Position numbers and translations under genes: made by a program
In this document: positions 29,102 to 51,319 of the stretch, in pieces
Layout of the letters: each line of letters begins with the position of its first letter
Numbering within the stretch: position 1 is the first letter of the stretch
The notes under the pieces: model-generated
Databases searched by the model: none
What the model was told of the DNA's origin: nothing
What the model saw: only the letters and a program-made list of their open reading frames with translations
Source of the DNA: a virus
Reading direction: 5' to 3' (one strand)
Length of the DNA stretch: 64,000 bases
IMG/VR virus record: IMGVR_UViG_3300033571_026375
Coordinates: 55,800-119,799 of that record

Positions 29102-31576
29102 TTATACACTATATGGGATTCTTTGTTCTTTAGTACCGGTTCCGAATACATACGGGAATGCTGGTACTGATAAATTATTATCCTCAAAAGTTAAATAATA
29201 AGCATATGTTCCGGATGGATATTCTGGGGTGACTCCGAATCTTCCGTTGAAATTATCTAAGTCTCCATATCCAGAAACATATACATAATCTTCTATAAAT
29301 AATCCCATAGGCAAAGAATATGGAGTATCTCCAACAACCATAGTGTTCCAATATTTCCAGTTTATTGGTCTATGGGTACTATCCGTAATACCAGAATAGC
29401 TCGGTCGCATTTTAATAATAGCACTATCTATATTCATGCTTCCAGAATAAGCATAAGGACCATATATAGGATAGCCATCTGTGCAAAAACCCAGAATCTT
29501 AGAATGTCCATCAGAGTGTCTAAAATAGTCATGATTATAGTGACTACCGCTATAATAGCTATTAGATTTTATTAATTTATCTGTTTCCCAACACCTCTTT
29601 AAAAATTTACCGTCTGTATACTTATATGAACCATCCACATTCACATAACCACCACAATCATCTGCTCCAAAAAAATGACTATTAAAAGATAGATTATATG
29701 TAAAACCAGATGGTGCCGATACGAATCCGGGTAGTGTTCCTGTGCCAGCTGATATAGATAAAATTGGAACACCATTATTCATTATTCCATGTATACCAGT
29801 ATTATTGATTCTCATAGGATTATGAGTATATTGACCGCCTCTATAATCCAATCTAAATGTATAATTTTGATCAACAATCACCGCTCCATTTTTGAAACCT
29901 ATTCTGGCAGAAGTACCATTATTATTAAGAGGGCGCCCTGCTAAAGCCGGATAAGGATCACCATCTGTAGATATTGCAAATTTATTTCCATCAAAAATCA
30001 TAGATGTATTACTCGGATAAGATCCACTATTATTAGAAATAGTTAATAAAGAAAAATCGAACCAGTTTTTGTCTAATGGAGATCTTTGCCAATAATTATT
30101 TTGTACACAAAAATAAAACCAGTCGCTATCGTATAGCAATGAGCCTGGGGTGCCAGAGCTAGTGGGATTAGATATGGTCCCGGAACTAACAGGATTATAT
30201 AATTTATCTGTTTTAATACTTAGTCTTTTATAACTATTACTATAGTCTATAGTAACTCCTTCTTCTCCTACTATATTGAGTCTGTCTCCATCTGTTAAGT
30301 TTATAATTATTCTATCATTGTTAGAAATATTATTTGGTGAAGATGCTATGATCAAACGAGTATCTGGTGGGGTAGGAAAATCGATAGATGATTCGTCTAC
30401 TGTTAGGTATGCTAAGCTATTCCAGGAATTAGTGCCATTTCCTACTTTCATCCTATGGGTGTCTAGCTCGTATCCTATTTCTCCGATAGCTAAAGTAGGA
30501 TTAATACCTGTCCATTGAGACAGGGTGTCTCTTCTAACCCTAATTCTAGTATAATTACTGTCGTTATAGGATAACGGAGTGACAGGAGCACCTGATCGAG
30601 ATATGGTAATTGGTATGCTGGGTGTAGTATATTGTCCTTGACCAGCAGAATTTCTACCACCTACTCTAAAAATATATGTTTTGTCTAACTCTAAATTATC
30701 GACAGCAAATGATGTTGAACTAGTAATACCAGCAACTAACCAGTTGGTAGAGTATATAGCATCACCAGACACGGGTCCGTATTGTATAGTGTAATCTGTT
30801 ACATTAGCACCTCCGTCATCCGCAGGATAATTCCAGTTTAAACTAACTTGTTTGTATGCTGTTTCGGATATAACGAGCGACTGTGGCTCAAAAGGAGGAA
30901 CCGGATCGTATACCAAATTCAATAGAGATGGACTAAGAGCAAACTCGTTGCCTATATTAATCACGCCTCCTGCTCCTAAGCCGGATCTTACTCCGCTAAG
31001 TATCAGAATTATTCTATTATTTTTTTGCCACGATATAGAGTTATTATGAGGTAATAAGTGTTCGGTTACCGGTATGGATACCTGTGAGTTTGCGCTTACT
31101 GTGACAATCGATATATTAGTTTTTTTATAATCTCGGATAGTTGAGAAATTATTGCTTGGCAAATATCCGCCTGATTGAGAGCACGATGCTATATGTATAT
31201 TTGTAGATGATCCAAAATCTGAAACTAGTGCTTTTCTGAAATCGCTCTCTAAAGCAGGAACGCTTATATTTACATTAATATTGGGGTCGGAACCCAATTG
31301 AGGAGCAGACGTTAGAGTCTTGTCATCTATCCCACTAGATAAATTTAAAATTAAATTAGCAGATACTAGTGCTCCTTTATGGATAGGTAAAGATAAATCT
31401 ATTGTGTTGACACAAAATCTTTCTATGATATTTTTATTATTTCTATAACCAGATGGATTATATCCTATTAATTGATAGTTTCCGTCTATATCCTCTATAA
31501 TTTGAGAATTATTTGGTTCTATATAAAAACCCTGTAATATACCAGAAGATAATGGAATAGATAAATTAAAGCTCAT
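29102..31576 (-). CDS. Virion adhesin with FN3, Mtd-N-like and YHYH domains (824 aa)
   Basis: Domains in order: a beta-rich N-terminus (1-220); fibronectin type III (about 225-325, with 'VSLNWNYPADDGG' and Y-T-I-Q-Y); a fibre motif of the Mtd N-terminal type (about 344-390, 'GEIGYELDTHRMKVGNGT' then W-N-S-L); a linker; and a YHYH-family domain (about 590-760) with G-S-H-Y-N-H-D-Y-F, 'DGYPIYGPY' and conserved Cys. YHYH domains are known from secreted bacterial proteins of unclear function. The start overlaps the preceding gene by 4 bp (ATGA). It is inferred to be a surface-exposed binding protein of the neck or head. No reverse transcriptase or variable repeat was found nearby, so the Mtd likeness does not imply a diversity-generating element. 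Confidence 0.75.
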   Translation of the reverse strand: MSFNLSIPLSSGILQGFYIEPNNSQIIEDIDGNYQLIGYNPSGYRNNKNIIERFCVNTIDLSLPIHKGALVSANLILNLSSGIDDKTLTSAPQLGSDPNINVNISVPALESDFRKALVSDFGSSTNIHIASCSQSGGYLPSNNFSTIRDYKKTNISIVTVSANSQVSIPVTEHLLPHNNSISWQKNNRIILILSGVRSGLGAGGVINIGNEFALSPSLLNLVYDPVPPFEPQSLVISETAYKQVSLNWNYPADDGGANVTDYTIQYGPVSGDAIYSTNWLVAGITSSTSFAVDNLELDKTYIFRVGGRNSAGQGQYTTPSIPITISRSGAPVTPLSYNDSNYTRIRVRRDTLSQWTGINPTLAIGEIGYELDTHRMKVGNGTNSWNSLAYLTVDESSIDFPTPPDTRLIIASSPNNISNNDRIIINLTDGDRLNIVGEEGVTIDYSNSYKRLSIKTDKLYNPVSSGTISNPTSSGTPGSLLYDSDWFYFCVQNNYWQRSPLDKNWFDFSLLTISNNSGSYPSNTSMIFDGNKFAISTDGDPYPALAGRPLNNNGTSARIGFKNGAVIVDQNYTFRLDYRGGQYTHNPMRINNTGIHGIMNNGVPILSISAGTGTLPGFVSAPSGFTYNLSFNSHFFGADDCGGYVNVDGSYKYTDGKFLKRCWETDKLIKSNSYYSGSHYNHDYFRHSDGHSKILGFCTDGYPIYGPYAYSGSMNIDSAIIKMRPSYSGITDSTHRPINWKYWNTMVVGDTPYSLPMGLFIEDYVYVSGYGDLDNFNGRFGVTPEYPSGTYAYYLTFEDNNLSVPAFPYVFGTGTKEQRIPYSV

Positions 31577-34272: not shown

Positions 34273-34314
34273 TTAATACTCCAGAAAGATATAATATAAG
34301 TATATACCCCTTTG

Positions 34315-35616
34315 TTATGTACAATCTATGCTGAACGGAGATTTCTTTACAACAGTGAAATTTTTACGATAAAATGCTGATCGTGACACGATAATATCGT
34401 CAATATAACCACTAAAACCTTCTGTTACATAACCTCTGCTATACAGATTATCAAAATTATAATATTGACTATGTAATGCTCCAATAATTAAATATGGATT
34501 ATTTATGATAATATTATTAGGATAATAAATCTCTTGTTGTTCGATACCATCAAAAAATAATGATATATAGTTTTTAGATCTACATATAGTAATATTATTA
34601 TATGAGTTTGTAGCTAATACCGGAGAACTAGATAAAATATTCACTCCGTTGATATTAAAATAAATATTTTGATTATTGTGATATAATTGCCATATATTAT
34701 CATTGCCACCATATTCTGAACAAGACGACAGCAGAGTTCTATTCTGACTGTCTACAATAGAATCTGGTTTAAACCATACTGAGATGGTAAAGTTTCCACT
34801 AAGAGACCAGAGTGTATTATATAAACCATCCGGGTCGTATGCTCTCATATGAGGATAAGTTTGAGTAATAAAAGATTCGTCACTATATGAAACATCTCCA
34901 GGAAAATACCAGCTTCCATCTGATATATTTGGCTCGACATTTTCTATTGTATCAATTTGATTAATTAAACAAGAATAATCCACAATTTGATTTCTATCTG
35001 CTTGATCCATATTTGCAAAGAACAATAAATCATTATCATTATCTATTCCGCCAGATGGAATAATAATATCACTAGTAGTAAACAATCCGGTTCCTATATT
35101 ATTAATTGCGGCTACTCTAATTTGATAAGGAACATTATTTGTTATGGAAATATTTAATCCTGTATTGGTACTAGTGCCATCGTAATAGGTATTCCAAGAA
35201 GCTCCAGAATCGTCACTATACTCTACTAAATAGTCTGTAATGGGTGATTTACCATCAAAAGGTTTTGGCCATTTAAAAATACCTAATGAATCCTTGTCTC
35301 TTGCAAAAATATATTCTATAAGACCAGGAGGAGTAGGGGGTAAATTATATACCAAGACATCTGCTGCTATATAAGATATTCGATTTTCTTCCTTGAGAGT
35401 ATTATAAGATAATACATCGCTAGAGACATATGTTAAATTTATAATAGGTGATTTTTTATTATATGAAATAACATCAGCCGCAAGATAAGATAAATTAATT
35501 TTTTCTGTTGGAATAGTATAAGATACAGTATCGATAGAAAGATACGAAAGCAATATCTGTTCAAGCTCGCTGGTGTCTCTTTTATTGATAAAACCAAAGA
35601 ATGGAGGAAGAATCAT
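34315..35616 (-). CDS. Virion adhesin: 19-residue repeats, FN3, LamG (433 aa)
   Basis: Residues 23-91 hold four tandem 19-residue repeats (see repeat entry). A fibronectin III domain follows at about 93-190 (W-P-K-P-F-D-G-K-S-P-I-T-D-Y, then Y-Q-I-R-V-A-A-I-N). Residues about 195-433 form a LamG domain: 'SGNFTISVWFKPDSI', 'NSYNNITICRSKNYISLFFD' and the closing 'GYIDDIIVSRSAFY'. The repeats probably attach or space the binding domains. Start chosen at ATG 35616, with GGAGGAAG upstream. It lies in one transcription unit with the other adhesins. Confidence 0.8.
   Translation of the reverse strand: MILPPFFGFINKRDTSELEQILLSYLSIDTVSYTIPTEKINLSYLAADVISYNKKSPIINLTYVSSDVLSYNTLKEENRISYIAADVLVYNLPPTPPGLIEYIFARDKDSLGIFKWPKPFDGKSPITDYLVEYSDDSGASWNTYYDGTSTNTGLNISITNNVPYQIRVAAINNIGTGLFTTSDIIIPSGGIDNDNDLLFFANMDQADRNQIVDYSCLINQIDTIENVEPNISDGSWYFPGDVSYSDESFITQTYPHMRAYDPDGLYNTLWSLSGNFTISVWFKPDSIVDSQNRTLLSSCSEYGGNDNIWQLYHNNQNIYFNINGVNILSSSPVLATNSYNNITICRSKNYISLFFDGIEQQEIYYPNNIIINNPYLIIGALHSQYYNFDNLYSRGYVTEGFSGYIDDIIVSRSAFYRKNFTVVKKSPFSIDCT
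35344..35550 (-). repeat. Four tandem 19-residue repeats
   Basis: Units begin at residues 23, 42, 61 and 80, an exact period of 19. The shared core is (L/I)-(S/T)-Y-(L/V/I)-(A/S)-x-D-(V/T)-(I/L/V)-(S/V)-Y, for example LSYLAADVISYNKKSPIIN. The fourth unit is cut short by the Pro-rich hinge before the FN3 domain. Alternating hydrophobic and Tyr residues suggest short beta hairpins. Confidence 0.85.
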
Positions 35617-35618
35617 AA

Positions 35619-36785
35619 TTATGGTCCACTATTTAATGCTGTTGTATCTCCCGATAATAATAATTTAGCTGTAGCAATTTTAACAATAGTAGCTATAGAG
35701 TATTGTCCAACTAGTTTGGTGTGATTATATCTATTTAATATGGTGCCGGAAAATCTCACTTGCCCCGACCCTAATTGGGCTACCAGACAATTAAATCCAT
35801 TGGTAATATTATTTGAAAAACTCACATTAATAAAACTATCATTGTGGTCTAGTGCTATAATTTTACCGTTATCGTTTTGTTCGACAATATAATTATTAGT
35901 AGTTTGATAATTAATACTGGCAGAAAATCTATTTAGTTCACCGTCGCCCAAAGACTGAGTTCCTGTGAAACTATTGCCGCCATTAATTTTTGCAAAATAT
36001 GATTGGTCATATATCGCGGACGAGCCTAAGCCGAGTGTATTGCGTTGTTCTTGAGCCGTACCATCATTTAATAGTTTTACTGCTTGGCTAGTAGCTGTAA
36101 TTAATCTGAAGCCTGTATTACTATTTCCATACAACATAGCGCCGGAATAGATGGACAAACTAGATATAGAATCTAGAGCAGAAGAGTGGGCTTGTACGTC
36201 TGTGCCAATATCTAATCCGGAAACACTTATTAGTAGTTTATTAAAATCATCATCATGATAAGATAATGATATATAATCTCCGCTTTCTAAAAGATTATAA
36301 ACTCTGTCATCGACTCCTTCGTTAAAATTTGTAATTTGAGCAACATTGTGTTGATGACTCACAGGAGCATAGATCCCAACTATATTTGGTGAAGAAATAG
36401 TCAATGTATTACTATTACTGTCGAGAGCAATAGATGTTCCATTATTACCAGCTATTCGTAATGTATCAGATATTCCGCTTAAAGAAATTGTATTAATAAA
36501 ATCAGTCAATTTTAACACAGATATTCCGGAACCAGGTGGTCCCATGGGTCCAATAGGCCCAACTATACTATCACCCTTGTCTCCCTTCTCTCCCTTATCT
36601 CCTTGAGGACCTGGTAGGCCGGATCCTGGTGGTCCTTGTAAACCTCTTTCTATATCAACAATAGCAATAGTCCTAGTAAAATTATCGTTTATATTTACTG
36701 TGGATGAACGAACATCTTCAGAGCTTTCTGTAGTATTGATAATGAGTAATTTATTTTCTGGAGTAATCACATTGATAGTAGGCAT
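35619..36785 (-). CDS. Collagen-like fibre protein (388 aa)
   Basis: An N-terminal domain of about 47 residues is followed by collagen-like Gly-x-y triplets (about residues 48-87: GPPGSGLPGPQGDKGEKGDK and on), then a beta-rich fibre with phage-fibre motifs ('HQHNVAQITNFNEGVDDRV', and L-N-D-G-T-A-Q-E-Q-R-N-T-L-G-L-G) near the middle. Collagen repeats in phages form trimeric stalks. The N-terminal domain and the jump into collagen match the start of the 4690-aa neighbour, so the two probably share an attachment site. Only one base separates its ATG from the neighbour's stop. Confidence 0.8.
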   Translation of the reverse strand: MPTINVITPENKLLIINTTESSEDVRSSTVNINDNFTRTIAIVDIERGLQGPPGSGLPGPQGDKGEKGDKGDSIVGPIGPMGPPGSGISVLKLTDFINTISLSGISDTLRIAGNNGTSIALDSNSNTLTISSPNIVGIYAPVSHQHNVAQITNFNEGVDDRVYNLLESGDYISLSYHDDDFNKLLISVSGLDIGTDVQAHSSALDSISSLSIYSGAMLYGNSNTGFRLITATSQAVKLLNDGTAQEQRNTLGLGSSAIYDQSYFAKINGGNSFTGTQSLGDGELNRFSASINYQTTNNYIVEQNDNGKIIALDHNDSFINVSFSNNITNGFNCLVAQLGSGQVRFSGTILNRYNHTKLVGQYSIATIVKIATAKLLLSGDTTALNSGP

Positions 36786-36786
36786 A

Positions 36787-39700
36787 TCATGTATCCTTCA
36801 ATATAAGTACGGTATCTGTGCCGGTGCTATCGGAAACCCTAATATGAAATGCTGATTGGTTACCCCAATCCACCGTATTAGGAATAGAAGATAAAGTAAT
36901 AATAGTAGTATTATTTATCGGATTAAATATATCTTTATCTTTATTTATAGGAAATCTTCTAAACCCACAGCGAACATAATTTTCAGTACCATCTAGGTCT
37001 ATTCTGACATCAATAGTTTCAGACAGAGCTGGCAGTCTGCCCCCATCTATCTCTAGGGTAACAGTCCAACTATTAGATGCTGAAGGCCAAGTAACAGAGG
37101 CCGACAGTATCTCTAATGGCTTACTAACCACCATAGGAATGTCTTTTTCATATTTTTTAGGAACAATATTTGTACTAATATTACTAAATATAGGCATATT
37201 TATATTTTCTTTAGTCATAATACGATAAAAATAGTTACCATATAAAATATTGGCTCTTCCAGAGATTTTGAAATCATAAACACCTTCTTGATCTGAAGAT
37301 ATATTATTTGGCATAATTTTAATATTATCTTCTATGATTTTGTATATATTTACATAATTGCCTATGTTGAAATTATTATATAGATTAGTGCTAATTATTA
37401 ATCCTGTATTATCTATGACGGCAATATAGGGCACTCCAGGAGAATCGATAGCATTTAATGATGTAGATCCACTAACAGAACTCATGGCTATATTATCATT
37501 AATTGATAGATTTAGATTATTATGATAAACAGTAACTAAATTATTAATAGTATCTATATCTTTAATTTGATTTAGAAATTTAATATCTATCATCAAAGCG
37601 CTCTGTCCTATATTAGTATAAATTTTATTATAGAATACAACATTATTTCCGACTATATTGGTTGAAGATAGCTCTGTTATAAATGAATCAACGACAGTTA
37701 TCTCGTTATTCCATTCTGTTTTGGTAATTGTTATATTTATTAGATTTCCCTCTAATAATACATTATTGATATTGCTAATTAAAACAGTTTGAGCCGAAGA
37801 GTTGTAACTACCTGTGGTTTTAAAATTATTTTTAGTATTTATAGACTCTAGTATAATGCCAGATATAATGGGAAGATAATTCTTAGCTAACCATGGAGAT
37901 CCTCCGCTAGTATAATATAATTCGTTATTAGAGCAGGTAGGAGGCTCTGGAAAACAAATATCGTGAGGAATGTATCCTCCGTATGCAGAACCATCTATGC
38001 CATAAATAGATGGACTAATATTATTAATAATATCTCCACTAACTATACTAATATATTCAGGTATGCAAGGGATAATAGGAGGTAATGATGATTGAGAAGG
38101 TTTTGTAACTGGTGTAGCGGTAGCCTTATGTACCCAGAAATATGTGGATGGGATAGCACCCGGCCTAGCCTGAACATTAAAGGTTGGAAAAGTAGAATTA
38201 GATGGTGATTCTATGTCTAATTTAAATACAGTGCCTGTGCCACGAGCGGCATTACCCAAAATAGCAGATGTTAAATTGATAGCCACTGGGCTAGTCAGGG
38301 ATATCGACTGAGAGCCGGATAATTCTGTTTGATTGGTATACATATTGGTCAATAAGTAGTTTGCTGTTCCATTACGCAGATTTTCTACGATGCCTCTTTC
38401 CAGCTGAGTATTACCAAATGATAGTCTAGTATCTAAAGCAAAAGACGAACCATCCCAACTAAAATTATTATTAGCCGCTGGTGGAGGATCCGTTATTTCC
38501 ACATACGGCCTCGGCAATACAACTCCGCTGATCCTTAAATATCCTGTTTCCCAGCAATTAGTATATGCTATATTGGTTCTAGTATTAGAAGAATCAATAT
38601 TTATAAAACGTAGACCTGTTAATCTAACATCATTCGACTTCCATGCTCCATTTGTGGGCAGATATCCGCTAAAACCGGGACTTAGATATCCTTTAATGCC
38701 CAGCTTATTGTTCAGTCCATCGTTTCCTATGGATCCATTACCCAATAAGCATCCAAAATTATATTGTATATCTCCATTAAATAAATTATTCAAGTCACTG
38801 ATATTTTCAAATTTATAATTTCCTACTACAATATCAACTAATCCGGTTCTGGGTTGAAAAGCTTCTTTTGTATTTACATACCACAGATTAGATGGAACTG
38901 GAGATCCAGGAAAACTCGAAGTAGTTTTCTTTAAAGAATATCTTCCATTATTCGAATTACTGACATCTTGATTTATTCTGATATAAACTTCATTCCCTAT
39001 CACAAGATCTTCTGACTGGATACCAAAATTATTAGTTTCATTCATCAGCAAAAATAGAAGTGAGTCTGGTTCTTCTTGTCCACTATATGGGATAATCTTA
39101 GTTGGACATGTATTATTAGGTAATATACTACGACATTCTAATTCATCAACAATAGGCTCTGGTTTCCATCTATACGTTCCCTGTAGTGGTAAAATTTGTA
39201 GTCCGGTAGATGGTGTAAATACCGGCTTATCACTATCGAAGTAAACTGCTATGCTAATGTTAGGATCATTGATAGAAACTGTCTGATTAAAAGTTAGAAC
39301 CTTAGATCCGCTATTATTTCTTGCGTCTACCACTGTAATGCCGAAAGTTTCATCGTATGCAGCACCATTGGGAGCAAAAGACAAAGGATATCCTTGGATA
39401 ATAACTTCTCCACTCTGTAAGTTATTATATAGCGGAGCGTTAAAAGGATTATCTAATAAATAAGATGGATAATTAATAGTATAGCTTAAGCCAGATGGTA
39501 AACTGCCGCTAATAATTATCCCAGTTAAACCAGTTGGCTGTGGACATTGTTCTCTTGCTTTGGGGCCGAATTTTAATTTACGAAAATAAAATGTATCACA
39601 CAGCGGCTTGAGTAATAGTTGCTCCTGAGGATCCTCTTTATCTTGTACAACGGGATCAGGATGAGGAATATCTATAGGAACATAAGTAAATAAAGTATCT

Positions 39701-42700
39701 ACAATATCTGGTGGTTCTATATATGGATTTTCTAATACCAAATTTGTATCTATGGCAGTAATCGTGAATGGTAATGATCCCAACAAGGAGCACGACGGCA
39801 CTCCAGAAAACTTAAAATGCCAAGTTTTAAGATTATCATTGAAAGATGGACTAGATGAAGACAAGCATGGATTTTGTAAATTCGGATCGATTACATCGCT
39901 ATATTTGGGATCTAAACGAGGGTCATATCCTGTGCAAAAAGTTGGAGTGTTTTGTAAAATAATAGTAGGAGGATGTAATGGTGACTCCAAACCAAAAATA
40001 GTATCAAATTCCAGTGTCCACGGCTCGTCACCTTGTTTAATAATAATTCCAGATTCTGGATTGGTATAATTTTTAATGCCACTAATTTTTATTGATTTTG
40101 CTTGATCAATAACAATATCTCTATTAGTATTTTGTAATTCTAGTAAATTAACTTTTGCCACAGCCGTAATCTTATCTGTAGCTATGCCTTTGCATTGAAG
40201 AGTGATAGAAGGATTAATAGATGTCTTATCTATTAAAATTCTAGAATCCCATTTCTGTACAAATTTATTACCTGTTCCAGCTACCTCCCAGATATTCAAA
40301 TCTTTATTATACTTTTTGTACATATTAGCATAGTTCATATCGATAGTATTTTCACCATCAAATGTAATATTCGGGTATACCCCACTATTTGGCTCCTTGA
40401 TATCAGCTTGAATAAAAAATTCATTGTTAGGAGTATTGTATAAATTAGGAAAAATATATTGTATAGAATTAGTGGGAATGTACTTGATATTGAATGAAGA
40501 ACGACTATAGCTCCCGTATGTATCATCAGCAAAAATATTCATAGTATATATACCGGTAGACGGAGCATATTTACCATATATGTCTGGCTTACCTTGCGCT
40601 GTTACGATCCACAGTTTATTAATATTATCATATCTATAAGACAAACTATAAGATAAATATCTGTGTGTTATAGTGCCAAAATTAGGAGTATTAAATAATG
40701 TTACTCTTGGAGGTAGATTGGGCCTATGTTTGCAAACTCCCTCTACTATAGCAAATTCGTATACCCACGGTTTATCAATTTCAAATTCGGGCACTGTATT
40801 GGTAAAAGTAGTATCTATAAGCAATGGTCTGAAAAAAGTAAAATTAGTCAAATAATTTTCTGAAGTATAAGTAGTCCAACTCGGATTGCCATTTGTATAT
40901 ATAGGTTGAGATACCGAGAAATTGACCAGTCTATCAGCAGCATAAGCTGTTTCTGATAAATACGATGTATTTCCGGTGTTAGTCGGCACATATTCTATGT
41001 TAAATCTGTTTAGGCCAGGATCAAAACCAGCAAAGATTCGTGTTGTTCCAAAATATACTCCTCCATTTACTGATGTGGTGATAGAAGAGTGTTGCTGATC
41101 CGTTTCGTAAACCGGCACCTGAAATGATATATTTTCATCTTTTGCTAAATTTATATATGTGTTAGTATTTAAATTATTAATATGTGGAGTATATGGAGGT
41201 CTATCATTTAAGCTAGATAATATATGTAAAGAACCACTACCCGAAGCTATTATTTGACCGCTATTAAAATCATTGACAATAACTATTGGATTCCAAATAC
41301 CAGTAGAAAATCCACCACCAGCTGGATAGCCTATAAGCTCTAGCTCAGAAGATGAATGTCTTACAAAATCATAACTGAAATCATTGGGTGATCCGTAAAC
41401 GAATAATCCTTGATCGTTAGGATTATTAACTCCTAAATCTATACCTTTAACATCAAAATATAGCTTCCAATAAGGAGAAGTTACTGATGCATACCCAGTA
41501 GGATAGGTAGGTACTATCATAGGTCTTTCAGTAATACTCAAATTAAGATATCTATAATCTGAACCAGTTTCATCAAAGACACCAATCGCTATAGGAAACA
41601 CCCCAGTATTTTTAAACGGATAGATATTGATGCCTATATTCCAGCCAGATGATGTATATCCATATAAACTATCAAAATATAGAAAACTATATTCCGCTAC
41701 TCCGCTAATAAATATCTTAGGAGTATTAATAGAAATATTGCTATTTAATGGAGGAGTACCTCCGCTGATCCTAACTCTCACTGTAAGCGCATCAGTATCA
41801 GTATAGGTCGACATATTATTAGTTACAGGATTAAATATAGCAAAATCTCTATTTTTTAATACCGACACATCACGAATGCCTATTTTGGGAATTTCTGGAT
41901 AATTGACAATATTACCAGATTGTAACGCAGAACCTATGGACACAGAGATGGGATAAGATGAAAATGCTGGTAATGTTTGAGGCAGATGGAAGATATGGTT
42001 CCATTTTTTAGTACTGTCGTCAAATGCATGTATAGTATGTTCCAGCAGATCAATATTATTTACATTAGAAAGCGTGGCAACATTTCTTATAAAGGCATTA
42101 TTTAAATTAGGATCCAGGTGGGGCTTGATATTAAAGTGACTATCTATTATGTAAACTAGACCAGAATTATTAATCAAACTAGTATCATATGGTATATCTA
42201 TAGATATTTTTTGATATGATAATTTATCTTTAATTTTATAAAGATTACTAGATGATGGCATACCATCAATAAAATCAAAATAATAATATTTATCAAATAA
42301 CATATAATCAGATATAGGAGTATTTTTATATCCAGATATTGATACACATAATCTTCCAGAGGTACACGATGAAGTACCATTATCTACTACAGAATATATA
42401 CCTGTAAATATAGGAGGAACAAGATGCCCATCAGTATCCTGGGGCCACCTAGCAGTAGAACCTCCATGAGACTGCACTATAAGATTGTTATAGTCTATTA
42501 AGTTAAACGATCCGGAATTATACCCTACAAAATCGATGTATCCAGATATAGGAGTTCGAGTGTTAATACCAGTAGAGAATACGTCTACATGTCTGTTTGT
42601 GTCTTCTAACAAAGCTTTGCTAGCATACATATATTGATTTGGAGGTATGGCGATCTTTCCGTCTATAGATATTCCTGTTATATGAGTGGTCTCATTGCTG

Positions 42701-45700
42701 TTATTTATTTTATTGATATGCGATCCACCAATAATATTTACATCATTAATTTTTTGTAATTTAATATGATCATTTTTATTAAGAAAACTTTTAATAGAAT
42801 CTAAGCGAGTTAACTGAATAATATTGCCATTATAAAATATATTATTATTTTTATTATATGGTTGATTAAGATTACAATATTTAACTGTAGTATTAATAGT
42901 TGGTAAAATATAAAATAAAGATTTATTTATCTCTTTATAAGAAGGAAAGTATGCTATGCCAGTATTAACTAGCGACGGATGATCTAGCTTAAGAGGTAAG
43001 GGATCAGCCGGATCTTGCATATATGCATATAAATAACAAGCATTATTACCAGAAGGCATATTATTAGGATCAATTCTCAACTGAATGATATCATATCTAT
43101 CAACTGGTATAGACCAATTAATATTTGAATCATAGCCTAGTGTTCCGGTATCTATCACAGGAGTTACGCCGGAAACAACACCTAATTTATTTAAATAATC
43201 GATGTGCAATTGATCAGCTAATTTTATTTGTGTGATAGAAAAATCTCCCATTGATCCGGACGTGCTCAATACTCCATAAAAATTTAGAGTATTAGGGTTA
43301 TGTCCAAGATATAAAAGTTCTACCATTCTCGTATTTGTGCTGGATCCGCTTGTATCTATAAAAATCTTATATGGCAAAGAAACAGTTCCTTTACCATAAA
43401 TACCACTAGATAACAAGTGATGAACAGGGAATCCAGAGGCATTAATCCTATAAAATTCTGTATACCCAATATCATCGGAGTCAACGATCTTGTGTGTTTT
43501 CACTCCGCTAAGTAGAATCGGAGATCCGGTAGATATTACACTAGAAAAACCCAGCCTGTCATCTAGAAGAATTCCAGTGGATGATAGAATATTATGATTA
43601 CGAGGAATAACTCCAGATAATTGATATCCGTTTTGAATACTTAACACCTGGTGACCAGATTGATTAGATATATTGTCTGTGTAGTTTAATAAATATCCGG
43701 TAGCAAGTCTATTTGCTAATTTAGACGAAATAGAACATGTCCCTGACACCGAATTACTGAATATATCACTATTGAAGGTTAGTCTTTCGATATTATCTGG
43801 AGCTAGAACTGTTAATGATCTTTCCATCAATATAAAATCTTGTTCCGGAGTGGGATCGGTATTTCTGATAGACATATTTTGTTGCAATACAGTGAAGCCT
43901 GTGTGGTAGACTTTAGACGTATCAAAAATCATATAAGGAGATAATGCAGCAAAATTGAATAGTTCAATATTGTCAAATACTTTTACAAGACCAGTAGGTA
44001 AATTTATAGCGAGTTCTTTTTTGTTCTTGTCAAATTCGAAAGTAGCATTATTATAGACTTGATCAAATAAATTTAAATTGGGTCTTATATCATATATCTT
44101 ATTATTATTATGAAATAAAGATCCTAAAAATGAACAACCATTGGTCAAATAGGATGCTCGTACAGCATGATTAAAATAATCAGGATAAATACTTTCTTTA
44201 AGAAGATAGCTTCTGTCATCCTTAACGTAGATTTTATTTCCGCTGATACTCTCTATATCAAAAAAGTTATTTTTTGGTAAGCGATTTTGATTTGAATTAT
44301 AGACAGTATCAAAAACTATGGGTATTCTATTTACTATTTTAGGACTATAGCTCTTACGATTATGATTACGATCTAGATTAACAGAAATATTACCGGAATG
44401 AACAATATTATATATGGATGGGTATAAAAATAAATTTTCTACAGAAAAAGCTTTGTCAGATAAAATATCGATATCGAAATAAGTATCTATTCTAGGCAAT
44501 TGAGGATTATACGCGGATGTGACCGGGTTATAGATCCTGAGATAATCGGTATTTCGTTCATCTAAATTAAATTCATCATTTATAGCACTAATAGAAATCT
44601 TAGAAGATGTTACATCCGTATAAAAAGTAACTAGTCCCGTAACATACTCTCCATTATCATTATAATTTTCTCTGATACCAAAGCCGTTAAAGCCTCCAGA
44701 TAATGAAGGTATCGGGCAAATACCTGTATAGGTAGTAAAGTTATAGGTCTGAAAAATTTCTGGAAAATAATGTCCAGAATCAGGAATATTACCAGAATAG
44801 CAAATCTTGCCATTTTGAGATATTCCGCTATAAGCAGAATCAAGTCTTATAGCATATTCATCTGTATAAAGTCTATACGGAATAAGCTTACCCCAGGTAT
44901 AGAAAAAGTTTGGTTCAGTAAATTTTAGACTTGTGGGTAATAGAGACAGTTGATCTTCATAATATCCCTGTTGACCATGACCTATTCTATTAGCAGATAA
45001 TGATGCTCTATTAGGATAATTAATTTTAATCTGATTATTTTTACCAGGAAATAGGATGTACGCCGTACCACTCTTAGCGCTAATGGCATAGTCGTGTACT
45101 ACAAGATCGTTATTTTCACAAAGAAGAGAGTCAATAGAAGAATCGAGAAAAATTTTGCCATTATCATTAAATATATTAATTGATTCCAAAATTTCATATC
45201 TATCAGATAACTCTATTCTTGATCCATGATGAGTTTTTGTATTAGAAATAATTCCATGGCCATCCTCTGTGATTAATAAACCATACTCATATGGGGCGCT
45301 ATCAATGTAGGCTCCAGCATAAATGCGTTGCTCTGTAATAAAATGAGCATTATCATCAGAACCTAATTTATCGACATATAAGACAGCATTATTAAGTTCT
45401 TTATCAAAATACCAGTAGTCATGAGCATAATTTAATTGATTGTTATCTCTAGTATAATCTATATTTGACTGTAATAATCCTATAGTATCATTACTGTAAT
45501 ATAATTGTTGTAATGGATTTAGCGGATAATTAGGACTCTTATTGTCTATAAAAGATCTATCAATATTGTTATGAAATTGTCGATAAATTTTTATAGGATC
45601 ATCAGAGTACCACACATAATCTACAATATTATCCGTTAATGAAAAATAAGCTTCATCATTTATATTCTCGTAATTTTCTGTTAATAATTCTATATTTGTA

Positions 45701-48700
45701 TAAGTGGGTGGATACGAAATACTCTCTAGGTTAGATATATTTTCGCTTTGTAGGTTCTGGAGAACATTATTTTCTGGCACCAAATTAGAATCTTCAGACT
45801 CTGTGAATAACCAAGAGTACATATTTTTGGTGGACCATGAAATATTTTTATATTCATGATAGTTAGTATATATTAATTTATCTACTTCATTCTCTGAACA
45901 TATATCATTAAATCGGTCTTCTTCCTCAATATAATAAGAAATTAAAAGTTCATTCATATTATGATTTATAACTTCATTATTCTCGGTCAAAATAAGCTCT
46001 ATATCTGAACCTCTTTTTTCTTGTAATAATCCATTCGTCAACGTGGCGCTATAATCATTAAATGAGCCGATTCTCATCCTAGAACCAAAAGACGGATTAA
46101 CATTCCTCATGGGTAATAACTGATTTGTAAATAATGTAGATACAGAATAATCAAAATTAGTATTATCAAAAATAATTTTGCCATTATTAATAGGTGTTCC
46201 GCTAAAAATAGTTGGCTTATATACATTTTTTACTTTATATCCAGATCCCAAAGTATTGTTAAGATTGTCTTTAAGAGATACATCAGAATAAATAGATAGA
46301 AACTCTGGAGATCCTGATATAGATGCTGGGATATAATGTTGTAAAATGGGCTTACATTTTGTGACGATATCGCTATTTTTATTCAAGATGCCGGAAAAAT
46401 TATTTTCTGCAGTCAAAAATGTTATGTATGGATTATATCCTCCGATATGACGCAATTCTCCAACAAGTGTAGCCGGAGGTGCGTTTTCCTCCAAATGATT
46501 TTGTGTAAGATAAATATTTTCTGTTCTTAGAATATTGCTCACGTCATAAGCGAAGACTTCCATGGTTGATACAGGATTATCGGCAACCTCGATAATAAAA
46601 TTATCTGTAATACTCAAGCCATCTTCGTCTGTAGCTATTAAATCTATAGAATAAGCTCCTATATCGCATATATCCGGCGTTCCGCTAAAACTAATAGTTT
46701 GGCTATTAAATACTAACCATCTTGGTAAGGAGTGTCCACCTTTTATCTCTGCGGAATATTTTAGTTCTCCATGATCTGAATCAGAAAAAGTATCACTAGG
46801 AACATTATATTCAAAAATATCATTAGCATAAATATTAAAATTACCAATAGGTTTAGCTACTAAAGGATTTTCTTGTTGATTCTGTATATAGATATAAAGA
46901 ATTTTTTCAAAATTAGGAGCAATATTATCTTTGTGTGATGATGCTTTAACTCTAATGGGAATTATATTATTAGTTTCATAATCAAAAGATGTATTAGTAT
47001 ATAAATAATATCTATTACCACTTTGTTGAATATTAAAAAATTTATTATTATCAGATAAATATCCGTTAGATAACTCAAATGACGGAGGATTGGATATAAA
47101 ATTGACAGGTTTATTTCCAGAATCAAAAATAGATATTCTGTGATAATTACTATCATCTTTCCATCTAATATAACAGCCACTATGTTTATTGAGATCAGAG
47201 TATGTAGAGCTATAACTACAATTATATGTATTTCTATGATATAAATTTAATGTTCCTGTATTATTATTAAAAACGGGTCTTACAGAAACAACGGAGCCAT
47301 CTGAAATATTAGTAATGTTGTATGGTATAGATATAGAAAATATAAAAGGATTATTGTTTGTGGCCACATTTGTTACATCATCTAAATCAAATATTCCATT
47401 TTGATCAATATCATCAACAGCTATCTCTATAGAATTATTTTGATTGCTGTATAAAAGAGCATCTTGGGGATTGATCACCGTGCCTGATCCGCCGTCATTT
47501 ACAAATGAAAATCTCGCATCAGGGAAAAACTGCGCAGTATTTGTGGCTTTTGCATCTTTGATATTTTGAAACTCAGAATTAATATAAAGACTATCGCATT
47601 CTTTATATACAAAAAAAGAGTAATTATCTAGAATAACACGAATATCTCCAGTAAATTGTTGTGGATTAGGACTATCTGAGTATAATGGATAGTTAATAAA
47701 TAATTTATTGCCACTAATAGATTGTATAATTCGATTATAGGCTATATTAGAATAAGGTTGTACAAGCTTAATATTCATATTATTTTTAGCAATTTGATCT
47801 ATTCTATAGCCGGCATTATTTACCGTACCGATGGGTAAAGTAATGATATTATTACTAATAGAAGCAATAAAATCAAATGCAAATAATTTATTATATTCAC
47901 TAGTATTTTGAATATAAATTTTAGTTTCGTTATTTAGTGTTTGTTTGACTCCTCTCCATTCTGGTGATGATACAAAAAAGGAGTCTTGACCACTTAGCAG
48001 AGCTTTATATCTCTTTTTGGGTAAAAAATATTTAGAGCTGCTTACAAATTCTATATCTACTTCTGAGTCTTGTACCACGCCATGATTTTTACTGTATATG
48101 GAGATATGAGGACTTGTAAACGACTGGGTAAAAATACCGCTATATCTAGGTTTAGATACATCTAGAATGAGATTACCATCAAAAGTTTTTTCGAATATGC
48201 CACTTATATGTACCTGTGTTGGAGTATACATATGATAAGTAGGTAAATGTCGAATAGATATATCAAGTTCTCTATTAGGAGCATCCAGACAATTTATATA
48301 TTGTCCGACTCGGGTTGGCGATTCTGGTCTTACTGGATTTGTATAGTTCCAAAAATGATAATGTCTACGTAGTTGAGAGTTATTAAATACTTGTATTTTA
48401 GTTCCGCTATTGGGAACAGTTGTACTATTTAGTATTTCTGTAATATTTAAAGGATTACGATAGGTTGCATTATTAATAATACCACTTTCAAAAAGAAAAT
48501 GTCCAACACCGCTACTTAGACCTTTATTAATTAATAGTTCTATATTGAATGCTATAGTTTTATCTTTAGGTAAATTAATAATAGGTGTCATAGAGCGCCA
48601 ATTACCATCCGTCTCTGTGCCCCTTAAATAAGCTGCAACAGTTGAATACTGTCCGTGTTCCAAAATTTGATTACCAGAACCCACTGTTCTAAAAGCTCCA

Positions 48701-50859
48701 AAAGCAAACTGGTTAGGCACCTCTGTTATGCCATAAGAACCCATAGCTACTGACTGATCACTTCTGGTAGTAGAACCTAAATTAGTAGCAATAGAATTAT
48801 CGCCACTTGCCATATTGCGACTGCCGATAGTAGCAGAATTAAAGCCGGCTAATATATTATGTTGACCTATTGATATGCTATTTTCAGAACTGGTGAAATT
48901 GTTTTCTCCAACAGTGAGCGTATTAATAGAAGCACTATCAGTAACATTATCATCTAGTCCAACAATCAGATTCCTTTCATTACTAATTTCTATGTCGCCA
49001 TTAGATCTTTGTAAAATATTAGATGCTGTGATTTGACGAGAAGGTTCTCTGGGATCTGTAAACTTAGGTATAAAATTATTTTCGCCCTGAATGTGATCAA
49101 AGGTAACATTATTATAACTAAAAGACCCAGTGATATTTGCTGCATTACGATAAAATGATCCGTGCGCATTATCTAATAAGTCCGCATTTAAATTAGTTAC
49201 TAATAAATTATTATTACCAACAGACAACGGAGGTCTAGTAGGAGTAGCATTGTCTCCCAGTATACGTAATTGTGATGCAACCTCTAAGTCTGCTAAGAAT
49301 CTTTTAAAGCCATATATAGTTTGAGATGTATTTGTACTAATATATAGTTGATCTGCAATTTCTCTAAATAAAACTGTACTAGTATCTCCCTGTAGATTCT
49401 CTATTATATAAATAGATTGAGCATCTCCTCCATTAATATCGTCCTGATTTATATCATTAGCATCTATACTAGAACCCGATCCAAAAATATTAGTAATCAA
49501 TCTAAGTTGATTATCTGTAGGATAATATGCTAAGATACCTGTTTTATTAGTAAAAGATCCACCATAATTAAAAGTAAATCCTCTTGGCTCGGAGGGTAAT
49601 ATATTAGGTCTGTTTGTACCTAACAGAGGAAGATTGTCATATAGGCTAACATCTCCAGCACTAGTAATTAAATTACCAATAATATTTAATGATCCTAATT
49701 TTGTGTCATCTGATTCAGCATTTAGCGGCCTATAGCCAAGAGAAGAAATAATATCTTGAGAATCAGCGAGATATACATCTTCTATCAGGCCTTTGGTATT
49801 GATAACAAATTTGGTTCCTACTTGGGATTGACTGTGTAAATTGGGCAGTCTATCTAAATTTAATGTGCCAGATAAATTGTTAGCATTTTGATAAAAAGAT
49901 CCATGCCTCCCATCTAATAAATCAGCATCCAGTCCGGATGATTCTCCGTCGTTACCGGCATGCCAAGGAGTATATCCCAACAATGCAATAATATCTTGAA
50001 TAGTTAATGATGATCCAGATATGACTCTTCCTTTATCATCTGTCGTAATTTTGGTATATGTTCCTGGAGATCCTACAGGAGTTAAAGATATAGAATTTTC
50101 TTCAACTAAAATATCTGAAGAAGGACCAATTTCCAAAACCACCGTGCCGTTTGGTACTGTGGTCAGTCCTCCGCCAATAAGACCAGAACCAGCTACAATA
50201 TTTATAGTGGATCCGCTAACTACAATATTTCCAGTATTCAAAGGAAAAGAACTAAAACTAGAACCATTGTAATAAATTAATCTATTAACAGAATACGAAG
50301 AATTACTTGTGCCTCCCTTAGAAATTGGGAGCGTGCCGATCAATTGATTTATATTAACGCCAGTAGCTCTAACGACACTATCATCTACTACAATAGTAGA
50401 GTTGGAAATTCTTAGACCATCTCCGATTTTTACATCTAAAATAGAAGTATTATTGGGACCGATTGTGCGTTGTATTCCAGAACCGGCTATTATACCAGTT
50501 ATACTATTATTAGTAGCATTACTCAGATTAACTATATCATTAACGGTATACGGAGAGCTAACAAGTTTATTTCCATCATATGAGATCAAATAATTGGTAT
50601 CAAAATTAGTATTATTGGTACCTCCACTAGTAATTGGCAATACATTAAAAATTAAACCATCTTTACCGGGTTCTCCTTTAGGTCCTTGTGGTCCAGTATC
50701 GCCGACTGGACCTTTTTCTATGGTGACCAAATTAATAGTATTAGTTCTTAAATCAGATACTAGAACTCTGGTTGTAGATATCTCTTGTGAATTAGATAAA
50801 TTAGATATTACAAGATATCTAGATGGTTGAAATTGCTCTTGAACGGATACTATACTCAT
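36787..50859 (-). CDS. Giant multidomain fibre/adhesin (4690 aa)
   Basis: N-terminal anchor (1-49), collagen triplets (50-68), two phage fibre repeats with 'LDADLLDGRHGSFY' (about 310-340) and 'LNADLLDNAHGSFY' (about 575-605), a YadA-like beta-roll (about 645-715, 'NSISIGQHNILAGFNSATIG'), an EF-hand-like loop (D-I-D-Q-N-G-I-F-D-L-D-D, near 1145), a cadherin/Ig-like domain (about 1335-1425, 'RWLVFNSQTISFSGTPD', 'YSIDLIATDEDGLS'), then more than 3000 residues of beta-rich modules that include related 'PP(R/T).xL.NTP' Ig-like units (near 3400 and 3550). An acidic Asn/Tyr-rich segment at about 1620-1840 breaks the pattern. No signal peptide or enzyme motif is seen. The length is extreme for a phage fibre. 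Confidence 0.85.
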   Translation of the reverse strand: MSIVSVQEQFQPSRYLVISNLSNSQEISTTRVLVSDLRTNTINLVTIEKGPVGDTGPQGPKGEPGKDGLIFNVLPITSGGTNNTNFDTNYLISYDGNKLVSSPYTVNDIVNLSNATNNSITGIIAGSGIQRTIGPNNTSILDVKIGDGLRISNSTIVVDDSVVRATGVNINQLIGTLPISKGGTSNSSYSVNRLIYYNGSSFSSFPLNTGNIVVSGSTINIVAGSGLIGGGLTTVPNGTVVLEIGPSSDILVEENSISLTPVGSPGTYTKITTDDKGRVISGSSLTIQDIIALLGYTPWHAGNDGESSGLDADLLDGRHGSFYQNANNLSGTLNLDRLPNLHSQSQVGTKFVINTKGLIEDVYLADSQDIISSLGYRPLNAESDDTKLGSLNIIGNLITSAGDVSLYDNLPLLGTNRPNILPSEPRGFTFNYGGSFTNKTGILAYYPTDNQLRLITNIFGSGSSIDANDINQDDINGGDAQSIYIIENLQGDTSTVLFREIADQLYISTNTSQTIYGFKRFLADLEVASQLRILGDNATPTRPPLSVGNNNLLVTNLNADLLDNAHGSFYRNAANITGSFSYNNVTFDHIQGENNFIPKFTDPREPSRQITASNILQRSNGDIEISNERNLIVGLDDNVTDSASINTLTVGENNFTSSENSISIGQHNILAGFNSATIGSRNMASGDNSIATNLGSTTRSDQSVAMGSYGITEVPNQFAFGAFRTVGSGNQILEHGQYSTVAAYLRGTETDGNWRSMTPIINLPKDKTIAFNIELLINKGLSSGVGHFLFESGIINNATYRNPLNITEILNSTTVPNSGTKIQVFNNSQLRRHYHFWNYTNPVRPESPTRVGQYINCLDAPNRELDISIRHLPTYHMYTPTQVHISGIFEKTFDGNLILDVSKPRYSGIFTQSFTSPHISIYSKNHGVVQDSEVDIEFVSSSKYFLPKKRYKALLSGQDSFFVSSPEWRGVKQTLNNETKIYIQNTSEYNKLFAFDFIASISNNIITLPIGTVNNAGYRIDQIAKNNMNIKLVQPYSNIAYNRIIQSISGNKLFINYPLYSDSPNPQQFTGDIRVILDNYSFFVYKECDSLYINSEFQNIKDAKATNTAQFFPDARFSFVNDGGSGTVINPQDALLYSNQNNSIEIAVDDIDQNGIFDLDDVTNVATNNNPFIFSISIPYNITNISDGSVVSVRPVFNNNTGTLNLYHRNTYNCSYSSTYSDLNKHSGCYIRWKDDSNYHRISIFDSGNKPVNFISNPPSFELSNGYLSDNNKFFNIQQSGNRYYLYTNTSFDYETNNIIPIRVKASSHKDNIAPNFEKILYIYIQNQQENPLVAKPIGNFNIYANDIFEYNVPSDTFSDSDHGELKYSAEIKGGHSLPRWLVFNSQTISFSGTPDICDIGAYSIDLIATDEDGLSITDNFIIEVADNPVSTMEVFAYDVSNILRTENIYLTQNHLEENAPPATLVGELRHIGGYNPYITFLTAENNFSGILNKNSDIVTKCKPILQHYIPASISGSPEFLSIYSDVSLKDNLNNTLGSGYKVKNVYKPTIFSGTPINNGKIIFDNTNFDYSVSTLFTNQLLPMRNVNPSFGSRMRIGSFNDYSATLTNGLLQEKRGSDIELILTENNEVINHNMNELLISYYIEEEDRFNDICSENEVDKLIYTNYHEYKNISWSTKNMYSWLFTESEDSNLVPENNVLQNLQSENISNLESISYPPTYTNIELLTENYENINDEAYFSLTDNIVDYVWYSDDPIKIYRQFHNNIDRSFIDNKSPNYPLNPLQQLYYSNDTIGLLQSNIDYTRDNNQLNYAHDYWYFDKELNNAVLYVDKLGSDDNAHFITEQRIYAGAYIDSAPYEYGLLITEDGHGIISNTKTHHGSRIELSDRYEILESINIFNDNGKIFLDSSIDSLLCENNDLVVHDYAISAKSGTAYILFPGKNNQIKINYPNRASLSANRIGHGQQGYYEDQLSLLPTSLKFTEPNFFYTWGKLIPYRLYTDEYAIRLDSAYSGISQNGKICYSGNIPDSGHYFPEIFQTYNFTTYTGICPIPSLSGGFNGFGIRENYNDNGEYVTGLVTFYTDVTSSKISISAINDEFNLDERNTDYLRIYNPVTSAYNPQLPRIDTYFDIDILSDKAFSVENLFLYPSIYNIVHSGNISVNLDRNHNRKSYSPKIVNRIPIVFDTVYNSNQNRLPKNNFFDIESISGNKIYVKDDRSYLLKESIYPDYFNHAVRASYLTNGCSFLGSLFHNNNKIYDIRPNLNLFDQVYNNATFEFDKNKKELAINLPTGLVKVFDNIELFNFAALSPYMIFDTSKVYHTGFTVLQQNMSIRNTDPTPEQDFILMERSLTVLAPDNIERLTFNSDIFSNSVSGTCSISSKLANRLATGYLLNYTDNISNQSGHQVLSIQNGYQLSGVIPRNHNILSSTGILLDDRLGFSSVISTGSPILLSGVKTHKIVDSDDIGYTEFYRINASGFPVHHLLSSGIYGKGTVSLPYKIFIDTSGSSTNTRMVELLYLGHNPNTLNFYGVLSTSGSMGDFSITQIKLADQLHIDYLNKLGVVSGVTPVIDTGTLGYDSNINWSIPVDRYDIIQLRIDPNNMPSGNNACYLYAYMQDPADPLPLKLDHPSLVNTGIAYFPSYKEINKSLFYILPTINTTVKYCNLNQPYNKNNNIFYNGNIIQLTRLDSIKSFLNKNDHIKLQKINDVNIIGGSHINKINNSNETTHITGISIDGKIAIPPNQYMYASKALLEDTNRHVDVFSTGINTRTPISGYIDFVGYNSGSFNLIDYNNLIVQSHGGSTARWPQDTDGHLVPPIFTGIYSVVDNGTSSCTSGRLCVSISGYKNTPISDYMLFDKYYYFDFIDGMPSSSNLYKIKDKLSYQKISIDIPYDTSLINNSGLVYIIDSHFNIKPHLDPNLNNAFIRNVATLSNVNNIDLLEHTIHAFDDSTKKWNHIFHLPQTLPAFSSYPISVSIGSALQSGNIVNYPEIPKIGIRDVSVLKNRDFAIFNPVTNNMSTYTDTDALTVRVRISGGTPPLNSNISINTPKIFISGVAEYSFLYFDSLYGYTSSGWNIGINIYPFKNTGVFPIAIGVFDETGSDYRYLNLSITERPMIVPTYPTGYASVTSPYWKLYFDVKGIDLGVNNPNDQGLFVYGSPNDFSYDFVRHSSSELELIGYPAGGGFSTGIWNPIVIVNDFNSGQIIASGSGSLHILSSLNDRPPYTPHINNLNTNTYINLAKDENISFQVPVYETDQQHSSITTSVNGGVYFGTTRIFAGFDPGLNRFNIEYVPTNTGNTSYLSETAYAADRLVNFSVSQPIYTNGNPSWTTYTSENYLTNFTFFRPLLIDTTFTNTVPEFEIDKPWVYEFAIVEGVCKHRPNLPPRVTLFNTPNFGTITHRYLSYSLSYRYDNINKLWIVTAQGKPDIYGKYAPSTGIYTMNIFADDTYGSYSRSSFNIKYIPTNSIQYIFPNLYNTPNNEFFIQADIKEPNSGVYPNITFDGENTIDMNYANMYKKYNKDLNIWEVAGTGNKFVQKWDSRILIDKTSINPSITLQCKGIATDKITAVAKVNLLELQNTNRDIVIDQAKSIKISGIKNYTNPESGIIIKQGDEPWTLEFDTIFGLESPLHPPTIILQNTPTFCTGYDPRLDPKYSDVIDPNLQNPCLSSSSPSFNDNLKTWHFKFSGVPSCSLLGSLPFTITAIDTNLVLENPYIEPPDIVDTLFTYVPIDIPHPDPVVQDKEDPQEQLLLKPLCDTFYFRKLKFGPKAREQCPQPTGLTGIIISGSLPSGLSYTINYPSYLLDNPFNAPLYNNLQSGEVIIQGYPLSFAPNGAAYDETFGITVVDARNNSGSKVLTFNQTVSINDPNISIAVYFDSDKPVFTPSTGLQILPLQGTYRWKPEPIVDELECRSILPNNTCPTKIIPYSGQEEPDSLLFLLMNETNNFGIQSEDLVIGNEVYIRINQDVSNSNNGRYSLKKTTSSFPGSPVPSNLWYVNTKEAFQPRTGLVDIVVGNYKFENISDLNNLFNGDIQYNFGCLLGNGSIGNDGLNNKLGIKGYLSPGFSGYLPTNGAWKSNDVRLTGLRFINIDSSNTRTNIAYTNCWETGYLRISGVVLPRPYVEITDPPPAANNNFSWDGSSFALDTRLSFGNTQLERGIVENLRNGTANYLLTNMYTNQTELSGSQSISLTSPVAINLTSAILGNAARGTGTVFKLDIESPSNSTFPTFNVQARPGAIPSTYFWVHKATATPVTKPSQSSLPPIIPCIPEYISIVSGDIINNISPSIYGIDGSAYGGYIPHDICFPEPPTCSNNELYYTSGGSPWLAKNYLPIISGIILESINTKNNFKTTGSYNSSAQTVLISNINNVLLEGNLINITITKTEWNNEITVVDSFITELSSTNIVGNNVVFYNKIYTNIGQSALMIDIKFLNQIKDIDTINNLVTVYHNNLNLSINDNIAMSSVSGSTSLNAIDSPGVPYIAVIDNTGLIISTNLYNNFNIGNYVNIYKIIEDNIKIMPNNISSDQEGVYDFKISGRANILYGNYFYRIMTKENINMPIFSNISTNIVPKKYEKDIPMVVSKPLEILSASVTWPSASNSWTVTLEIDGGRLPALSETIDVRIDLDGTENYVRCGFRRFPINKDKDIFNPINNTTIITLSSIPNTVDWGNQSAFHIRVSDSTGTDTVLILKDT

Positions 50860-50866
50860 TTGATTA

Positions 50867-51319
50867 TTAATTGCCTAATGACGAACATTGTCCACAATCA
50901 TCTTGCGTATTAATATCACACTGAAATGCTTCAGTACCAGGAACATTTCTTGATATCAATCCAATAGAGCCTTGTAAAATTCTAAATACTTTTTTCCCTC
51001 CACCAGAATATAAATCGTTCGGCTCTTGTAATTCTAGATCATATCTTGCACCACCGAAGGTATATTGAGCTGTTTGACTAGCTGGTATTCTTAAAATTAG
51101 TTTACCTAATAATGGATCTATATAAAACTCATATTGACTATTTCGTGTATCTGTCACAAAAGTACGTATAATGGGATTTTCTGGTTGATCTTCTATCCAT
51201 CTGAGTCTTGCACACCAATTTGTCAAATTAATAGCAGTATTATTATCGTTCTTATATTCAAAAGCAATAACAAAAGCTGTTCCTTTTTCCATTGTAAAAC
51301 TGTATTCAGCAGCTGCCAT
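50867..51319 (-). CDS. Small beta-sandwich structural protein (150 aa)
   Basis: The N-terminus (Y-S-F-T-M-E-K-G-T-A-F), the middle 'INLTNWCARLRW' and the closing 'YDLELQEPND' with 'VFRILQGSIGLIS' follow the pattern of a widespread family of small phage structural proteins that often sits next to fibre genes. The C-terminal tail has three Cys (C-D-I-N-T-Q-D-D-C-G-Q-C). It ends 7 bp before the giant adhesin gene begins. It may be the adaptor that holds the collagen-like fibres at the head-neck region; this is inference from position. Confidence 0.65.
   Translation of the reverse strand: MAAAEYSFTMEKGTAFVIAFEYKNDNNTAINLTNWCARLRWIEDQPENPIIRTFVTDTRNSQYEFYIDPLLGKLILRIPASQTAQYTFGGARYDLELQEPNDLYSGGGKKVFRILQGSIGLISRNVPGTEAFQCDINTQDDCGQCSSLGN

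Follow-up and report, generated by a model that had tools for sequence, protein, structure and literature searches.

The window analysed here, 64,000 nt long, comprises bases 55800-119799 of the 119.8-kb IMG/VR virus record IMGVR_UViG_3300033571_026375. Its late genes are encoded on the minus strand in the order terminase, portal, cement protein (PF22758 match), major capsid protein (MCP), probable head-tail adaptor and a block of fibre genes, followed on the same strand by three neck-region genes, the tube gene, three small genes, the tape measure gene and, past the window, the tip genes. The block consists of five co-directional ORFs with gaps of -4 to +42 bp among them, which together cover 21,758 bp (29102-50859), or 34% of the window. 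Both the position between the capsid/adaptor and terminator/tube genes and the share of about a third that an earlier note had assigned to the block are thus borne out. The cassette as a unit begins one gene before, at 51319, with an LtfC-like gene that was absent from that note. The features of the region, from upstream to downstream, are as follows:

51980-52993, minus strand: MCP (phrog_2522, 5e-4; 21% identity to gp27 of Bacillus phage G)
51335-51850, minus strand: probable head-tail adaptor, judged from its position and helical nature, directly upstream of the cassette; 53-77% identity in relatives
50867-51319, minus strand: LtfC-like Ig-fold mount protein, B type, 150 aa (phrog_1084, 1e-12); first gene of the cassette
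36787-50859, minus strand: 4690-aa fibre protein with a short beta-strand anchor, a collagen-like stretch, a long body and He_PIG (4e-13)
50692-50838, minus strand: residues 8-56 of the 4690-aa protein, forming an N-terminal anchor that recurs in the product of 35619-36785
35619-36785, minus strand: collagen-like fibre of 388 aa; N-terminal anchor as in the 4690-aa protein (hhalign match)
34315-35616, minus strand: 433-aa protein with Laminin_G_3 (lectin-type; 1.8e-11) and fn3 (1.2e-6) domains
31573-34272, minus strand: 899-aa protein with a weak LamG-like domain (Laminin_G_3, 1.2e-4, below the cut-off); homologues at the same place
29102-31576, minus strand: 824-aa protein with YHYH (2.7e-27), fn3 (8e-11) and Mtd_N (7e-10) domains; phrog_2576 (1e-73)
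28554-29075, minus strand: probable neck protein, Cys-rich and conserved, with invariant cysteines; directly downstream of the cassette
26957-27988, minus strand: terminator-like gene (weak match to phrog_17840, tail terminator, E 0.02, for 2 of 14 homologues)
25861-26919, minus strand: probable tail tube protein (from its position), with a conserved counterpart in 20 of 21 related records
7135-23310, minus strand: tape measure protein, 5391 aa (phrog_28, 4e-27, with an N-terminal piece as the query)

Domain searches support the adhesin character of the 824-aa, 433-aa and 4690-aa proteins and, weakly, that of the 899-aa protein, with a lectin-type domain above the cut-off in one of the five (34315-35616). 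Of the five, which the earlier note called giant adhesins, only the 4690-aa protein is giant; the other four range from 388 to 899 aa. The 4690-aa and 388-aa proteins share a strand-rich N-terminus of 49 residues followed by collagen repeats, and their anchors align over 49 columns with an hhalign probability of 98 (E 6e-14). The first 600 aa of the 4690-aa protein are its most conserved part (47-60% identity), and the middle is variable. Because homologues of 3363-4589 aa are encoded at the same place in seven distinct relatives, the block is not an assembly accident. No match to T4 fibritin (wac) was found for any of the five proteins in Pfam or PHROGs, and the Pfam domain search of the block recovered no Hoc- or phi29-type capsid-binding match. 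The Mtd_N domain was considered as a sign of a diversity-generating target, a candidate that was rejected because the reverse transcriptase RVT_1 is absent from the 119.8-kb record, itself a fragment.

The small protein encoded at the head of the cassette connects the block to a known type of fibre attachment. All 48 of its homologues match phrog_1084 (best 3e-18), a family that DT57C LtfC matches at 1.4e-32, and its profile aligns with the P-HM1 homologue at E 1e-8. The relation to LtfC is argued through the phrog_1084 family because the direct match between the profile and DT57C LtfC alone is poor; Pfam hits among the 48 homologues are likewise weak (LtfC PF23926, best 0.0025, 5/48; BppU_N, 0.0097, 4/48). 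The AF2 model (pLDDT 86) is a compact single-domain beta-sandwich, with elements that are nearly all strands, and its structural matches in BFVD include BppU_N-type and small phage proteins, whereas a fold search of the PDB returned generic Ig domains only and was uninformative. A sequence match in the PDB, 26dk_M, was traced to ORF087 of Pseudomonas phage KPP25. In DC31, P-HM1 and KPP25, a phrog_1084 gene is followed by a gene for a small protein, in part collagen-bearing.

In the window and in relatives, the mount gene adjoins that of the 4690-aa fibre, an arrangement that parallels DT57C LtfC beside LtfA with its strand-donating N-terminus (PMC10713586). In both cases, a small Ig-type phrog_1084 gene directly precedes a long fibre gene, the product of which has a short, strand-rich N-terminus and then a rod, trimerising in DT57C and probably so here. 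Thus, we consider an LtfC-type mounting of the fibres to be well supported and likely. The two systems also differ: here the pair stands between the adaptor and neck genes, in T5/DT57C it follows the tip genes; a collagen-like rod takes the place of a helical one; the fibre reaches 4690 aa; and each phage encodes two paralogous mounts. BppU of phage TP901-1 sits at the tail end, as does LtfC of T5-like phages, so membership in the LtfC/BppU family does not in itself point to the neck.

The sole match to the MCP in the phage collection, in which no cultured close relative was found, is gp27 of Bacillus phage G (21%); with MCP relatives encoded in at least 596 IMG/VR stretches, the phage, a large, uncultured and water-borne one, belongs to a common lineage. 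In G001, a 223-kb record, all compared capsid-to-chaperone proteins are identical to those of the window. Profile searches with the adaptor candidate (51335-51850) gave no match, and profile comparison of 51335, 26957 and 27910 (the neck-region gene between 28554 and 26957) with the DT57C neck proteins detected no homology. The best PDB fold match of the 28554 model is a chain of the T4 portal-neck complex, at low confidence (E 8e-3, TM 0.37). The listed TTG start of 26957-27988 overlaps the upstream gene and homologues start with MSC; the ATG at 27913 (MSCNHSN) is probably where the protein really begins, giving ~318 aa. The tail sheath family PF04984 is absent in 22 of 22 related records, so the phage is likely a siphovirus, with a divergent sheath still possible. 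Moraphages (PMC12619734), considered as phages of the same kind, differ in that a sheath is present and were set aside.

Several side observations concern the same genes. The tube gene occurs in two or three copies in some relatives (L103:7575-11138; L107-L108; L115; L117), and one relative (L115:10714-11913) carries a ~210-aa domain inserted between the two cysteine pairs of the 28554 homologue, which by eye resembles a von Willebrand A type domain and has no match in Pfam. Tape measure open frames of ~5000-7700 aa are found in relatives G006, G010, G013, G009 and G004, the longest (7737 aa) in G006. By the rule of thumb of ~0.15 nm of tail per tape measure residue, tails of ~0.8-1.1 micrometres would follow from tape measure lengths.

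Gene order was compared across relatives, as the earlier note had proposed. A search with the MCP gave 80 loci. In 57 of these, the MCP gene is directly followed by an LtfC-like gene, and in 4 the LtfC-like gene comes one ORF later; in 14 loci, the adaptor gene follows that of the MCP and is succeeded by an LtfC-like gene (12 loci) or directly by 28554 (2 loci), and the remaining 5 are uninformative. In longer stretches, the core genes do not change order, and the fibre genes occupy one or both of two places, cassette A between the MCP and adaptor genes (in a few relatives after the adaptor) and cassette B, that of the window, between the adaptor and 28554, each with its own LtfC-like gene first. 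The A-type mounts form one group irrespective of gene location. The small anchor proteins of the A cassettes showed no detectable homology to the B anchor. A scan with the B-type mount yielded 10 loci, each of which reads adaptor, LtfC-like gene, 4690-aa homologue; a scan with gene 28554 yielded 14, and in each of them the block, or at least its final genes, stands before 28554. The range of the two scans is limited to close relatives, and several loci belong to contigs that had been counted before. Within this range, the place of the B block is invariant, always between the adaptor and 28554. In the window phage, the MCP gene lacks an adjoining A cassette; in G001, that cassette is found from 173.4-173.8 kb onward, a distance of ~125 kb.

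The block is replaced in six relatives (G007, G009, G010, G011, G013 and G019), and in two others it is reduced to the mount with a 96-aa protein (G008, which keeps the tail-tip homologues) or to the mount with nothing (G012). The B mount is missing from its usual place in G018 and G020, the latter being without the block. Six relatives lacking the giant fibre encode a single-chain mount with an extra domain, which in the one that matches Pfam is a P-domain. The block is thus dispensable, since several relatives retain the core genes but have only a reduced block or none.

The type of block follows the tail genes rather than the head genes. Relatives with the giant-type block and the others split cleanly, in the sense that the lowest identity within groups exceeds the highest between them, at the terminator-like gene, the tube gene and one further gene at the chaperone position; the tip proteins also split by block type. 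No such split is seen at the cement protein, MCP, adaptor, TerL or the N-terminus of the tape measure, and it is only partial at 28554 and 27910. Since block type follows tail and not head proteins, this pattern argues for a mount on the tail side rather than on the capsid, with the caveats of linkage and of few genomes. Linkage alone could explain the co-segregation with tail genes, yet the adjacent 28554 shows a weaker effect than the tube gene.

Considering these observations together, we propose that the block encodes an accessory adhesion device, in which fibres are carried on an LtfC-like collar at the neck of a large siphovirus, a model for which we see about even support. The Ig-fold mount protein would form a ring on the virion, and the 4690-aa and 388-aa proteins would insert their short, strand-rich N-terminal anchors into it; the collagen-like stretches would make the rods trimeric, with the lectin, fn3 and YHYH proteins as side arms or tips of the finished fibres. 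The most likely site of the ring is the neck or upper tail, at the terminator or first tube ring, similar to the lactococcal neck passage structure (NPS), and the device could provide reversible binding to glycans in addition to a tail tip that separately binds the receptor. We hold a placement at the neck or upper tail to be about as likely as not; the distance of the second cassette from the neck genes counts against it. The block itself is confirmed; its placement at the neck is plausible rather than established.

Precedents for adhesive proteins at this position exist. In the lactococcal 936 group, nps lies upstream of mtp, and its product was located at the neck by immunogold (PMC4759559). 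The NPS combines a BppU-type N-terminal ring with CBM tips at the neck and is non-essential in TP901-1 (PMC6669499, PMC4759559, PMC4493119); it resembles the device proposed here in the BppU/LtfC-type fold of the mount, the glycan-binding modules, its optional nature and, in the 936 group, a gene upstream of that for the tube (PMC4759559, PMC6669499). The NPS, however, is a single polypeptide of ~500-900 aa, whereas here the mount and the fibres each have a gene of their own, in a stretch of 22 kb, and none of the window genes unites a BppU-type N-terminal domain, a coiled coil and a CBM in one chain. We do not file the block as an NPS, although it may work in an NPS-like manner; the closest parallel is the single-chain mount-adhesin of the six relatives, which is without an evident coiled coil. 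In the Alteromonas phage R7M, the 1154-aa adhesin-like ORF28 lies between the MCP and head-tail adaptor genes and is the second most abundant virion protein, whiskers are seen at the neck, and the assignment of ORF28 to the whiskers is the inference of the authors (PMC8265664). Unlike the window fibres, ORF28 has no LtfC-like neighbour; ORF27, considered as an LtfC homologue, proved unrelated on comparison. The Shigella phage Sf14 also encodes its whiskers, gp30 and gp31, within the head-neck gene cluster, between the portal and capsid genes (PMC11821841). The likeness is one of gene position; Sf14 is a myovirus, and its whiskers are dimers attached through an adaptor protein.

Gene order by itself, from which the earlier note derived a location on the head or neck, does not settle the matter. 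The position is invariant and known neck genes are similarly placed, but a second LtfC-headed cassette lies ~125 kb away, the TP901-1 neck structure gene lies past the baseplate genes (PMC4493119), and the best-known member of the LtfC family forms a tail-tip collar (PMC10713586). The main alternative, possible but clearly less than an even prospect, is that the proteins are lateral fibres of the T5 type at the tail tip. In that case the LtfC-like ring would encircle the final tube ring close to the tip, the 4690-aa protein would be a side tail fibre, and only the gene position would be unusual. In the solved LtfC placement, twelve copies form a collar at the DT57C tail tip, to which the LtfA N-termini add beta-strands (PMC10713586), and the P-HM1 homologue is encoded among baseplate genes. 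Block type, moreover, follows the tail-tip proteins as well as the tube, and gene order need not mirror location in TP901-1 (PMC4493119). In the ocean Prochlorococcus siphovirus P-SS2, long fibre genes (ORF067-074) similarly lie upstream of the tape measure gene, and their products were detected in virions (PMC2784084), although no match to the P-SS2 records was obtained with the window's MCP, TerL or LtfC-like protein. Against a placement at the tip, the B cassette is not seen in the tip gene cluster, being found after the adaptor in all 10 B-type loci of the separate scan; the tip proteins are separately encoded and persist without the block; and two LtfC paralogues would need two collars on one tip.

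The head is the weaker half of the head-or-neck proposal. Head fibres that decorate the capsid or its vertices would fit the A-type LtfC-like gene directly after the MCP gene in 57 of 80 loci, but block type tracks tail proteins and not the lineage of the MCP, cement protein, adaptor or TerL, which lowers our estimate of capsid decoration; furthermore, LtfC, the family member of known placement, forms a collar on the tail, the A cassette of the window phage is remote from the head genes, and no capsid-binding match of the Hoc or phi29 type was found, so that we regard this explanation as improbable. Still less credible is that the products are secreted or cell-surface proteins outside the virion, or decaying cargo, given the tight packing in a late operon with structural genes, the intact genes conserved across relatives, and the presence of a collar-type mount and anchors.

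Returning to the fibre-bearing collar, the block on this reading represents a new arrangement of a known device, the LtfC/BppU-type collar with fibres, distinguished by the exceptional size of one fibre and by a second, paralogous mount. Tentatively, and with less assurance than we attach to the neck model, we suggest that the siphophages of this large lineage, uncultured and for the most part aquatic, bear as many as two LtfC-type collars that are independent of each other and have a matched anchor apiece, one fixed among the neck genes with a giant collagen-stalked fibre and the other mobile in the genome with changing adhesins. If so, the head-tail junction would serve accessory adhesins as a modular docking platform, apart from the receptor-binding tip. 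Should the mount sit at the neck, LtfC-type rings would be a portable docking module used at both tail ends, and the swapping of blocks would amount to a natural experiment on accessory adhesin function. Because the paralogous cassette moves far yet keeps its mount, these phages also caution against reading virion location from gene order.

Some further features of these genomes were noted. Close MCP relatives (L131-L135) are binned in metagenome-assembled genomes of Flavobacteriales (2), Chitinophagia, Alphaproteobacteria and SAR202, a contradictory host signal with Bacteroidota in 3 of 5 bins plus an alphaproteobacterium and SAR202. By eye, sugar-nucleotide, sugar kinase and glycosyltransferase-like genes are recognizable at 60044-61018 of the window and in relatives (L002:7545-14061; L003:12417-18448), among them a GDP-mannose dehydratase-like protein adjoining the terminase. 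The second fibre cluster of G001 (C1:146000-174000) extends over ~15 kb and contains, besides the A-type LtfC-like mount, proteins that by eye are Mtd_N-like and LamG-like; the small genes that come after it may include lysis functions.
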